This document shows, piece after piece, positions 27,920-32,348 of a stretch of DNA of 64,000 nt (positions are counted from its first letter, which is position 1; each line of letters opens with the position of its first letter). The notes beneath the pieces were generated by a model that was given only the letters and a program-made list of their open reading frames with translations, had not been told where the DNA came from and did no database searches. Source of the stretch: Halobacterium sp. DL1 (GTDB taxonomy: Archaea; Halobacteriota; Halobacteria; Halobacteriales; Halobacteriaceae); NCBI GenBank assembly GCA_000230955.3, contig CP007060.1:620001-684000 (forward strand), written 5' to 3'. The position numbers and the translations under genes were made by a program.

Positions 27920-28645
27920 TCAGCCCGCGTCGGCCTCTGCCCCGGGCACGTCGCGGTCGGTGAACGCGGGGAGGTGTGGGTCGCGCTCGGGGTTGCGGCC
28001 GAACGCCGGCAGGCCGCCCGCGAGCTGGTCGGTGAGGACGCGGCGGAGCCGGTTCAGACTCGTCTTGTCGAGGTCGTAGCGGTCGGCGAGACGCTGGAAC
28101 GCCGGCTCCTCGGTCACGTCGTGGCGCTTGTACTGCTCGAAGAGGTCCTCGAGGCGCTCGGAGGAGACGCTGCCCGCGTCGAGGTCGTCGAGCCCGAAGT
28201 AGCGCCGCCGGTCGACGTCCACGACGTGGCGGATGACCACGAGCGCCACCTTCTCGATGGCGCGCTGGCTCCCGAACTCCGTGAGGTCGATCTCGCCCAT
28301 GACGCCGAGGGCGACGTCGCGCTGCCACGGCGTCACGTCCACCGCGTTGCACAGCGCCTGCGTCGTCCGCAGGCGGTCGAGGTAGTGCGCCCGCCGGCTG
28401 TGGCCCTCGGTGGCCGTGTGGCGCTCGTCGTGGAGGCGACGGACGCTCTCCGAGAGGTCGGCCTCCGGTGACTCGGCGCGCCCGATGACCGTCGCGCTGG
28501 GTGAGACGACGCCCCACTTCCGGACGGTCGTGTCGCGCTGTGCCTCCGCACGGGACAGCGCACCCGCTCCGGGCCGGTGTTCGACGCGTCGGTCGCCGCC
28601 GCTGGCCGACTCCCACCGGACTGACGTCCCGGAGCCTGCTCGCAT
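27920..28645 (-). CDS. rpoeps: RNA polymerase epsilon-like subunit (haloarchaeal)
   Basis: 241 residues from the ATG at 28645, which follows a TATA-like AGTTTAAC (28672-28679) at leaderless distance. The core TTVRKWGVVSPSATVIGRAE, EGHSRRAHYLDRLR, TQALCNAVDVTPWQRDVALGVM and DKTSLNRLRRVLTDQLAG match, from memory, the protein annotated in haloarchaea as DNA-directed RNA polymerase subunit epsilon. The middle has cyclin-like helices reminiscent of TFB, so a general transcription role is plausible, though to my knowledge its function is not well established. The first about 45 residues are variable. A duplicated 38-bp element lies upstream. Confidence 0.8.
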   Translation of the reverse strand: MRAGSGTSVRWESASGGDRRVEHRPGAGALSRAEAQRDTTVRKWGVVSPSATVIGRAESPEADLSESVRRLHDERHTATEGHSRRAHYLDRLRTTQALCNAVDVTPWQRDVALGVMGEIDLTEFGSQRAIEKVALVVIRHVVDVDRRRYFGLDDLDAGSVSSERLEDLFEQYKRHDVTEEPAFQRLADRYDLDKTSLNRLRRVLTDQLAGGLPAFGRNPERDPHLPAFTDRDVPGAEADAG

Positions 28646-28745
28646 GTCGTCATCGTCCGGGCTGCCTACTGTTAAACTCTCGGTCGACGCCGTCGTTCGT
28701 CGATCAGAGCAGCCGCTCGTCGGTCGGAGCAGTGCCCGTAGAAGT

Positions 28746-28783
28746 CCTTCGTATCTACTCCTTGTCGCCAGAAGCACTTAAAG
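28746..28783 (-). repeat. Promoter-like 38-bp repeat, copy 1
   Basis: On the minus strand the element begins with a TATA-like CTTTAAGTGC and ends GATACGAAGG. It matches the second copy (28883-28920) at 36 of 38 positions. The conserved stretch spans a TATA box and the following about 28 bp where transcription would begin, and both copies read toward rpoeps. After the 38 bp both continue as CGAAGG(A)CTTCT, a small potential hairpin. Confidence 0.75.
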
Positions 28784-28882
28784 GAGGGTCGGGGCGGCCG
28801 ACACTCCCGGCGGTAGTGGAACGGAAACTCCTCGACGACCGGCGACGGAGCAGTCGCTGGGACGTCGTGACACCCCGAGAAG

Positions 28883-28920
28883 CCTTCGTATCTACACCTT
28901 GTCGCCAGAGGCACTTAAAG
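28883..28920 (-). repeat. Promoter-like 38-bp repeat, copy 2
   Basis: Second copy of the element at 28746-28783, 137 bp upstream of it in the direction of rpoeps transcription, and 21 bp beyond the stop codon of the DsbA-like gene. The two substitutions lie in the spacer, not in the TATA-like part. It could start a transcript that runs through copy 1 into rpoeps, or define a short RNA of about 130 nt. Confidence 0.75.
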
Positions 28921-28941: not shown

Positions 28942-29571
28942 CTACTCCGTGCCTTCGACCAGCCGCCGGAGCTGTGCCGGCGGGACGGCGCCGCGGGCGG
29001 CGTAGCCGTCGTAGGCGAACGTCGGCACGCCAGTGACGCCGGCCTCCCTCGCCTCGGCGAACTGCGCCTCGAGGCGCTCGCGCCACTCCTCGTCGGCGAC
29101 GGCGGAACGGATCTCCTCGGGGCCGAGGCCGACGTCCGCGGCGACGTCTGCGAGCACGTCCACGTCGCCGATGTCGCGGGCGTCCTCCCAGAGCGCCTCG
29201 AGGAGCGCGACGTCGAAGTCGAGCCACTGGTCGGGGTGCTCCTCTTTCACGTAGAACGACGCCACCTGCGCGTCCAGGGAGTCGACGTCCCGCGAGAGGT
29301 CGACGCTCATCTCGTCGGCGCCGTACTGCTCTTTGAGACGCTGGACGTTCTGTCTGGCCTGCTCGAAGTACGCCTCGTCCTTCCCGTCGTCGGCGTCGTG
29401 GTCGATCTCGCCGTCCGGCCCACGCTTGCCCGCGCGCAGGTCGAAGGGACGCCAGTCGACGTCGAGGCGGTCCTCGCGGCTCTCCTGGTACTCCGCGAGG
29501 GACTGCCGCCCGAGGTAGCAGAACGGACAGACGTAGTCCGAGTAGACGGTGATCGCGTCGGTGTCGCTCAT
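28942..29571 (-). CDS. DsbA-like thioredoxin-fold oxidoreductase (FrnE type)
   Basis: 209 residues from the ATG at 29571. The active site CPFC (C15-C18) in VYSDYVCPFCYLG is at the very N-terminus, a helical insertion domain (about 60-155) follows, and the cis-proline loop is VTGVPTFAYDGYAARGAVPP. This is the FrnE branch of DsbA/2-hydroxychromene-2-carboxylate isomerase-like proteins, cytoplasmic (no signal peptide), often tied to oxidative-stress resistance or polyketide isomerisation. It is transcribed toward rpoeps. Confidence 0.92.
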   Translation of the reverse strand: MSDTDAITVYSDYVCPFCYLGRQSLAEYQESREDRLDVDWRPFDLRAGKRGPDGEIDHDADDGKDEAYFEQARQNVQRLKEQYGADEMSVDLSRDVDSLDAQVASFYVKEEHPDQWLDFDVALLEALWEDARDIGDVDVLADVAADVGLGPEEIRSAVADEEWRERLEAQFAEAREAGVTGVPTFAYDGYAARGAVPPAQLRRLVEGTE

Positions 29572-29827: not shown

Positions 29828-30592
29828 ATGCGCGAACAGGACACTTTTCGGGTGAAGTCAACAGCGACGACTGTCCAAGTCATCGACGGATTGATCGCTC
29901 TAGACCACCCCGGAGTTGCCGACATCGCGGCCCACCTCGACATCCCGAAGAGTACTGCGCACGACCACCTCAGCACGCTCATCAGTTTGGGGCTTGTCGT
30001 CAAGGAGCCAGGCGGATACCGACTGGGTGCCCGCTTCCTCGAGTACGGCAGCTACGCACGCGACCAGATGGCGGTGTACCGTGCCGCCCGACCGGTGGTC
30101 GACCGACTCGCCGATGACACCGGCGAACGCGCAAACCTGCTGATCGAGGAAAATGGGCTCGGTGTCTACCTCTACAGTGCGGAGGGCGGATATCCGACTG
30201 AGATCGATACCCGCCCCGGGGAGCGAGTACCCCTCCAGACTACCGCGTCCGGAAAGGCAATCATGGCATTCCTTCCCCGGACCCATACCGCTGAGATAAT
30301 CGACGAGCATGGTCTTCCGGGAGCTACTGAAAAGTCGATCACGAACCGAGATGTACTGTTTACGGAACTTGAGCAGGTCCTGAACCGAGGATTCGCCATC
30401 GACGACGAGGAACACATTGAGGGAATTCGGTGTGTCGCCGCACCGGTACTCGACTGTGACGACACGGCTGTCGGCGCTGTCAGCGTCTCTCTACCAGTCA
30501 CCAGAGCGCCCGACGAGCCCGTCACGGACGAGATAGTGCGTCGCGTCCTCGGTGCCGCAGAAGGTATTGGGGAAACTATCGCGCGTTCGTAG
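29828..30592 (+). CDS. IclR-family transcriptional regulator
   Basis: 254 residues. An N-terminal winged helix (about 12-70; PGVADIAAHLDIPKSTAHDHLSTL) precedes the IclR effector-binding domain (about 80-250; VPLQTTASGKAIMAFLP, then DDEEHIEGIRCVAAPV). It is expected to bind a palindrome near a catabolic promoter and respond to a small carboxylate or sugar acid. A 9-bp palindrome GGTATTACC-type (29784-29792) lies about 36 bp before the start and could be its own operator. A second IclR gene follows 960 bp downstream. Codon use is less biased to G/C than the flanking housekeeping genes, consistent with an acquired island. Confidence 0.93.
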   Translation: MREQDTFRVKSTATTVQVIDGLIALDHPGVADIAAHLDIPKSTAHDHLSTLISLGLVVKEPGGYRLGARFLEYGSYARDQMAVYRAARPVVDRLADDTGERANLLIEENGLGVYLYSAEGGYPTEIDTRPGERVPLQTTASGKAIMAFLPRTHTAEIIDEHGLPGATEKSITNRDVLFTELEQVLNRGFAIDDEEHIEGIRCVAAPVLDCDDTAVGAVSVSLPVTRAPDEPVTDEIVRRVLGAAEGIGETIARS

Positions 30593-31550
30593 CGTCATTG
30601 TTTCCACAGTGGTGACCCACTCTCTGGGTTCGAGATAGTTTTCCGGCTATCCCGGATACCGGCATCTCGCCTGTGGGGTTGTAGTTGTCACCCTGTCAGA
30701 CCGTTGTGAGTGCGACCACCGGCTCGTGTGGCGGAAAACATATAGCTGGAAAACATATTTCGTTTTATTAGTGGCGGCCTCTGTACGATTCGGGGGCTGA
30801 AGTTACCTGCCAGTTGTGGTCGACGAAGAACCGCTCTATGTACTCCTCCTACACTTGAATCCTGGAGTACTCTCCTCATCTCATAGTCAGAACGGGGTGT
30901 TCCCGAACGCTACTCACTGATCAGACACTAGACAGCCGATAGTTGCGATCGCGCTATACTGCCGTCTCAGTTTAGTGAGGGTTCCTCATCTTTGGTTCGC
31001 CGCTCTCGTGGTTGTGGTAGTGATTGGTACTACTTCGACGACCCTGGTGTAGCACTGATTTAAATCCGGTATTAGCGGATTTCGTAGTGGGGCCTGATTG
31101 GGTGAATGCGATGGTAAAGTCCCGGCAAACACCGAGGTCGACCATCTCCCGTGAACAACGTCCTCGGCCACGACTATCGATAGTTCCTACACCACCTGTC
31201 ACTGGTGTCTGAACCAGTGAACTGAGCAGTCCACGATTTCAGCGACGGTCCGTAGCTCAACTTCTGACACGTACCGTGGTCGACGAGGGAGCGAAGATAT
31301 GGCCCGAAACTGATATATCGGCAGGGGGAATAACAAACGCACTTCTGTTATTTCCGGAATGTCGGTGTCGAATTCACCAGCTGAACGGTTCCACTGTTCG
31401 TTCAGCCGAGTGACCAAGAGGTGACGAGACGTTGATTCTCTGGTCATGACGCGAGGCTGCTGGGAACTGGTCCCGGACGACCTTCATCCCGGGGGTGGGC
31501 CGTTGAATTCAACAGCAACAACTTTCAACACCTTCTCCGTATGCTATACC
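30593..31550. other. Gene-free, AT-richer stretch between two IclR genes
   Basis: 958 bp with no convincing gene. Two copies of GGAAAACATAT lie at 30733-30743 and 30748-30758 (15-bp period), next to TTTTATTAG. Minus-strand frames at 30972-31202 and 31199-31447 are open for 76-82 codons but do not show haloarchaeal codon bias or a recognisable family. They may be eroded genes. Nothing here looks like an insertion sequence end. Confidence 0.5.
31502..31513. promoter_or_regulatory. 12-bp palindrome upstream of the second IclR gene
   Basis: GTTGAATTCAAC is a perfect palindrome ending 37 bp before the ATG at 31551, beside a weak AT-rich promoter region (AACTTTCAAC, about 31521-31530). The size, symmetry and position suit an IclR-family operator for autoregulation. 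Confidence 0.5.
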
Positions 31551-32348
31551 ATGCCAAACGCGGGCGAGAACAGCTCGACACGAACGGTCGACGCGGTCGG
31601 ACGGACGATCGATATCTTCGAAGCCCTCCACGAACTCGAGGGGGGTACGGTGACGGAACTGGCCGACCATCTCGGCTACTCGAAGAGCTCCGTACACGCG
31701 TATCTAACCAGTCTCGAGGAGCGTGAATTCGTCACCAAAGAGGGCTACTTCTACCGGCCTAGCTACCGCTTCATCACGATAGCCGAACGCCTCCGTCGAT
31801 CGCACTACGACATCTACAAATTCGGTCGGGAGGCGGCCAAGCGGCTCGCGGAGGAGACCGGCGAGTTCGTTCAGATAATGGTCGAGGAGTACGAGATGGG
31901 CATCCACATCTTCACGGCCTCGGGGAAGAAGGGCGTGTACGCAGACAAGTACCCGGTCGGACGACCGTGTCCGCTTCACTGCAACGCTGCAGGGAAGGCG
32001 ATCCTCGCCACCCTCCCGGAGCGGAAACTGCAGCGCATCGTGTTCCAGAACAATCTGCCTTCGATCACCGAGAACACCATCACTGACCCCGACGAACTGC
32101 TGCGGGAACTGGAGGCGATCCAGGAGACCGACGTCGCGTTCAGCACGGAAGAAGCTGTCATCGGGATGCGTGGTATAGCGTCACCTGTCGTTGGTCCGTC
32201 GGGGGAGACTCTCGGATCGGTCAACATCTCCGGGCCGGTGAGCCAGTTCGACACGGAACGGTTCCGTGAGACCCTCCCAGAGAAGGTCGTCGAGTGCTCT
32301 AACTTCATCGAGGTTGAGATAATGAACGAACGCGGATACGATGATTAA
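31551..32348 (+). CDS. IclR-family transcriptional regulator (second)
   Basis: 265 residues from the ATG at 31551. The winged helix (about 12-75) contains GTVTELADHLGYSKSSVHAYLTSL; the effector domain contains HIFTASGKKGVYADKYPVGRPCPLHCNAAGKAILATLPE and EEAVIGMRGIASPVVGPSGETLGSVNISGP. It is clearly distinct from the first IclR (29828-30592), so the pair is not a recent duplicate. It faces the carbohydrate ABC importer 700 bp downstream, the most likely target. The palindrome at 31502-31513 may mediate self-control. Confidence 0.93.
   Translation: MPNAGENSSTRTVDAVGRTIDIFEALHELEGGTVTELADHLGYSKSSVHAYLTSLEEREFVTKEGYFYRPSYRFITIAERLRRSHYDIYKFGREAAKRLAEETGEFVQIMVEEYEMGIHIFTASGKKGVYADKYPVGRPCPLHCNAAGKAILATLPERKLQRIVFQNNLPSITENTITDPDELLRELEAIQETDVAFSTEEAVIGMRGIASPVVGPSGETLGSVNISGPVSQFDTERFRETLPEKVVECSNFIEVEIMNERGYDD

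Follow-up and report, generated by a model that had tools for sequence, protein, structure and literature searches.

Two tandem elements upstream of rpoeps

The window, by which we mean the whole stretch of 64,000 nucleotides analysed, carries on its minus strand rpoeps (27920–28645), identified from annotated homologues as the gene for the RNA polymerase subunit epsilon (241 aa). This gene and a DsbA/FrnE-like gene located upstream (28942–29571; PF01323, E = 7.3e-32), also on the minus strand, flank two copies of a 38-bp element, both in the same orientation as rpoeps. The proximal copy, CTTTAAGTGCTTCTGGCGACAAGGAGTAGATACGAAGG (28746–28783, minus strand), was delimited by repeat comparison and with a family profile, and the distal one, CTTTAAGTGCCTCTGGCGACAAGGTGTAGATACGAAGG (28883–28920, minus strand), by repeat comparison. 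The first-pass annotation had reported two copies identical at 36 of 38 positions and 137 bp apart; we reproduced this, with the distance taken from start to start, and dinucleotide shuffles of the window contained no match comparable to the repeat. We found no third copy genome-wide at up to three mismatches, and none at the rRNA operon. Beyond the DsbA-like gene, two genes for IclR-type regulators lie close together, one recognized by family search (29828–30592) and the other by sequence inspection (31446–32348).

The proximal element consists of a TATA-like TTTAAGT (28782–28776), a spacer block (28773–28760) and a start-site box, TACGAAGG (28753–28746), all read on the minus strand; the corresponding TATA-like and start-site boxes of the distal element are at 28919–28913 and 28890–28883. 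Both copies indeed have the CTTTAAG box first described in them, and rpoeps also has the separate, closer box that had been proposed for it: GTTTAAC (28671–28677, minus strand), situated 26–32 nt ahead of the ATG, with CGAGAGTTTAAAC at the equivalent place in relatives. This box would produce a nearly leaderless mRNA. By analogy with the geometry of rRNA promoters, we infer that transcription from the proximal element would start near 28752, leaving a leader of ~107 nt to the rpoeps ATG, and the start predicted for the distal element lies near 28889, with a leader of ~244 nt.

A geometry shared with rRNA promoters

Upstream of the rRNA operon in this genome, TTAAGT-N22-TGCGAACG occurs two times at a distance of 131 bp, and a related third promoter lies ~133 bp beyond them. 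The elements share with these haloarchaeal rRNA promoters the TTAAGT box, the 22-nt spacer, a start box of the form T(G/A)CGAASG and the tandem arrangement, at 137 bp for the elements and about 131–133 bp in the rRNA operon. A tandem layout is also known from Halobacterium cutirubrum, whose rRNA operon has five promoters of differing strength (PMC4983044). The joint pattern TTAAGT-N22-TRCGAASG matched exactly four sites in the genome, of which two are rRNA promoters and two are the elements, and it gained none when one mismatch was allowed; as it was built once both kinds of promoter were known, this result measures specificity and is not an independent discovery. The spacing between TATA and start boxes is kept in relatives for rRNA promoters and elements alike. 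Nevertheless, the two kinds can be told apart: their start boxes, TGCGAACG and TACGAAGG, agree at 6 of 8 letters, rRNA promoters lack the conserved spacer YTCTGGCGACAAGG of the elements, and they precede the rRNA operon whereas the elements occur at rpoeps and a few other genes, essentially only in genomes with rpoeps. Compared with the haloarchaeal basal promoter (TATA TTWT, BRE CGAAA and -10 WW; PMC4983044), the element similarly has an AT-rich box ~27 nt ahead of the presumed start but differs in being conserved through its whole spacer and in having, in place of CGAAA, only a weak CG at -9/-8. The earlier proposal that the copies are promoter-like is thus well supported by this geometry and by the conservation from TATA to start.

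An element family with conserved spacer in haloarchaea

A search for the motif in other haloarchaeal genomes, suggested with the first description, revealed the family pattern TTTAAGT-NN-YTCTGG(CG/TC)ACAAGG-NN-TAGMTACGARGG, which the window copies fit at up to two mismatches, with no matches for the reversed-pattern control. When 293 genomes of the order were searched, 42 contained a strict pattern and 118 a wider one, the reversed controls giving zero in both cases. Carriers include Halobacterium (with Hbt. salinarum), Halorussus, Halomicrococcus, Natrialba, Natrinema, Haladaptatus, Halorientalis and others. The spacer conserved in the class is YTCTGGCGACAAGG. Variants of the element differ by lineage: Halobacterium and Halorussus have CGACAAGG...TAGATACGA, Natrialbaceae have TCACAAGGTGAAGCTACGA, and family f7, like genera g43 and g81, has TTCGTAGTGARG. 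A profile of 101 copies was flat outside 37 positions, from TTTAAGT to RGG, except for short flanks and the weakly conserved CG at -9/-8. Conservation ends ~10 nt beyond the presumed start, with CTTCTC and a weak tail there in Halobacterium, and the sequence farther downstream is free. This agrees with the initial remark that conservation exceeds what a TATA box needs, as it runs from the TATA box through the spacer to just past the start. In nine loci checked the elements were intergenic, save for overlaps with doubtful predicted ORFs. A coding interpretation was considered and rejected: the element is open as VLLATRxRYEG, yet its variable positions in the profile (7–9 and 23–24) are not at third codon positions.

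Tandem copies are common, with 70 element pairs spaced by 108–257 bp, mostly 117–147. A sister species, whose rpoeps is 97% identical, has three copies versus two in the window. The distal element of the window (28883–28920, compared with L035:8920–9072) is a hybrid, its upstream half resembling the sister's distal copy and its downstream half the sister's middle copy. The difference is a trace of recombination between tandem copies, which either removed a unit of ~118 bp from the window or added one in the sister species.

Association of the element with rpoeps

That the copies are tied to rpoeps, as originally claimed, was borne out well beyond the window, where both have the orientation of the gene and lie no more than 300 bp ahead of it. 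Of 66 non-redundant rpoeps loci, 57 had a sense element in the 900 bp preceding the gene, the nearest copy at 102–290 bp from the start codon, and 30 of those 57 had two to four copies; no element turned up in shuffled upstream regions (0/198). In Hbt. salinarum (locus L128), the distance from element to rpoeps is ~112 bp. Among 293 haloarchaeal genomes, 117 had both the element and a strong rpoeps, 24 only rpoeps, one only the element, and 151 neither (Fisher p ~4e-56, uncorrected for a phylogeny in which the co-occurrence is clustered). The lone exception, G155, has a contig that ends ~290 bp past its last element, where rpoeps should begin. The association can also be followed within families: in family f1, all 18 genomes with strong rpoeps have elements and those without it, except G155, have none, and in family f5 the sole genome with strong rpoeps (G244) is the sole one with elements. 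Inspection of 19 of the 24 genomes with rpoeps only showed mostly a more divergent element. In genus g49, all five genomes tested (L180, L182, L183, L186 and L190) contain rpoeps with no detectable element upstream.

Two distant RpoEps paralogues (34–40% identity), one on a Halobacterium hubeiense plasmid, have a variant element 150–180 bp upstream (L216:480–516 and L217:653–689) with the start box TATCTATATGAA, and these paralogues and variant elements are perhaps separate factor-promoter pairs. We detected no element upstream of the distant paralogue in the window's own genome (~248 aa; L215, G000:C1:435465–435890).

Elements also occur at other genes, whose names, DsbA excepted, were assigned by sequence inspection and not by family search. 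Neighbours of rpoeps often carry them, such as the DsbA/FrnE gene in Halobacterium, which is preceded by one to three copies in other species of the genus, and a nucleotidyltransferase-like gene in Natrialbaceae. Away from rpoeps, we found them at menA-like genes in Halorussus and at cspA-like and GNAT genes elsewhere. The menA-like prenyltransferase gene of Halorussus (L011, L012, L019 and L163) has its own single element ~125–160 bp upstream, and a menA-like gene adjoins rpoeps in Haladaptatus (L144 and L145). In a Natrialbaceae genome (L169:1501–1840), three tandem elements precede a cspA-like cold-shock gene far from rpoeps. In a hand-picked set of 24 remote elements, all 24 were closer to the rpoeps elements of their own lineage than to those of other lineages. 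Such sharing of letters is expected if one trans-acting factor reads all the elements, and so argues for a single reader in each genome; alternatively, copies spreading within a lineage could have left the same signature. Antisense elements located downstream of rpoeps and aimed into its 3' end were seen at 13 of the 66 loci, among them loci of Halorussus, Haladaptatus and Halorientalis, which is odd for plain rpoeps promoters; these copies could make antisense RNA as feedback. An example is L039:9495–9796 (Halorussus ruber); there and at comparable loci, the antisense elements facing the rpoeps 3' end number one to three, in tandem.

RpoEps, a polymerase subunit with a predicted cyclin box

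Across most of its length, the window RpoEps shares 55–58% identity with proteins that are encoded on plasmids and carry the annotation DNA-directed RNA polymerase subunit epsilon. It had no family match in Pfam (TFIIB included), NCBIfam or PDB-sequence searches, a single weak PHROG match of unknown function and no homologue in phages. A viral origin was discarded, with zero exact element matches in viral contigs. RpoEps has been reported as a polymerase-bound subunit, and polymerase with epsilon transcribes native templates efficiently, although the role of the subunit has been called enigmatic (PMC8305020). Our literature search retrieved no paper on the element, and rpoeps came up in PMC8305020 alone.

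An AlphaFold2 model based on 42 homologues showed a confident helical core at about residues 82–207. In structure it came closest to the first cyclin repeat, as found in TFIIB, Brf2 and archaeal TFB, and next to cyclins (Z ~9.5). The core aligned with the first cyclin repeat of TFIIB (5oqj_M) with Z 10.4 and 2.3 Å over 96 residues, and with Pyrococcus woesei TFB (1d3u_B) with Z 9.6, values that mostly helical models can also reach, near 10, through a common arrangement. Foldseek, too, gave Brf2/TFIIB and cyclins the highest ranks, with no match below E 0.5. At the sequence level, hhalign of RpoEps against TFB gave probabilities of 0.2–1.3%, and the comparison with the genome's own TFBs was not significant; restricted to the matching regions, it placed the motifs IG, LTP/LP and QRAIEKVA/GRSIEGVA in the same register, with 1–2 of 60 shuffles equally good, a marginal support. 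We predict from the model that RpoEps contains a single cyclin box (about residues 82–212), most similar in fold to the first repeat of TFIIB/TFB. With 241 aa, one predicted cyclin box and a single Cys, it lacks the two cyclin repeats and the N-terminal Zn ribbon of TFIIB/TFB.

Promoters proposed to be read with the help of epsilon

The element is found across haloarchaea essentially only with rpoeps, which suggests that epsilon helps the polymerase to recognize its own promoter class. We thus favour, with a probability of roughly 0.55, the interpretation that the two copies are tandem, autoregulatory promoters of rpoeps belonging to a class read with help from RpoEps. The probable promoter role is argued from the geometry, and the putative recognition by epsilon from the co-occurrence, the lineage-matched variants and the predicted fold. 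Under this scheme, rpoeps would have two starts besides that of its near-leaderless promoter, ~107 and ~244 nt ahead of the ATG. TBP would occupy TTTAAG; epsilon, predicted to have a single TFIIB-like cyclin box, would add contacts downstream of TATA at the spacer. The first repeat of TFIIB faces the DNA downstream of TATA, where the conserved spacer of the element sits. If the element class is read by the epsilon-bearing polymerase, rpoeps would be autoregulated.

The most serious alternative is that these are tandem rRNA-type promoters used by an ordinary TFB/TBP pair, coupling rpoeps to growth rate, epsilon having no role in recognition. Some promoter specificity in haloarchaea does come from the use of several TFB/TBP pairs (PMC7289017), the window genome has many TFB matches, and both the TATA/start geometry and the tandem layout equal those of rRNA promoters. 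However, the absence of the conserved spacer from rRNA promoters and the restriction of the menA-like, cspA-like and GNAT-neighbour elements, too, to rpoeps-bearing genomes make us consider it unlikely. Still less probable is that the elements are operators, overlapping a promoter, of an unknown repressor or activator from the same genomes. An operator would fit the 37-bp extended conservation and the copies in both orientations, some antisense to rpoeps, but the element has no clear dyad, and the fixed spacing of TATA and start box speaks for its being recognized as a core promoter.

The proposal that each unit is a conserved small-RNA gene or structured leader (~80–110 nt) found no support and looks very improbable. 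The tandem units of ~120–140 bp, some antisense to both neighbouring genes, are suggestive of it. Nonetheless, sequence conservation stops ~10 nt after the start, mean folding z was ~0 for the RNA downstream of 164 non-redundant units from three groups, there was no Rfam family, only a chance-level match elsewhere, and no terminator-like site; scans for sigma-70-like promoters and intrinsic terminators returned none. The hairpin CGAAGG(A)CTTCT, pointed out in the first-pass annotation, is not used by the predicted minimum-energy structures (z ~0 in the window). Non-conserved transcripts from the units are possible. Finally, a selfish or mobile repeat spreading near rpoeps would account for copy numbers shifting through recombination and for copies at neighbouring genes, but we give it almost no credence in view of the absence of visible mobile-element ends and of exact matches in viral contigs, the fixed position before rpoeps across families, and the confinement of conservation to promoter positions.

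Returning to tandem promoters read with the help of RpoEps, a broader and more tentative version, for which we would not claim even odds, is that RpoEps is a half-TFIIB promoter-specificity factor and the element its cognate promoter, together forming an archaeal sigma-like regulon centred on autoregulated rpoeps. RpoEps would then assist initiation at a set of genes as an accessory, TFIIB-like factor, similarly to the trans-activating TFB paralogue TFB3 of Sulfolobus (PMC7289017), from which it differs by its one predicted cyclin box, its lack of a Zn ribbon and its being reported as a polymerase-bound subunit (PMC8305020). The existence of a promoter class essentially confined to genomes with rpoeps, and centred on this gene, makes the role of epsilon directly testable. 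If true, it would mean that archaea can select a promoter class by means of a dedicated, polymerase-associated TFIIB-like subunit.
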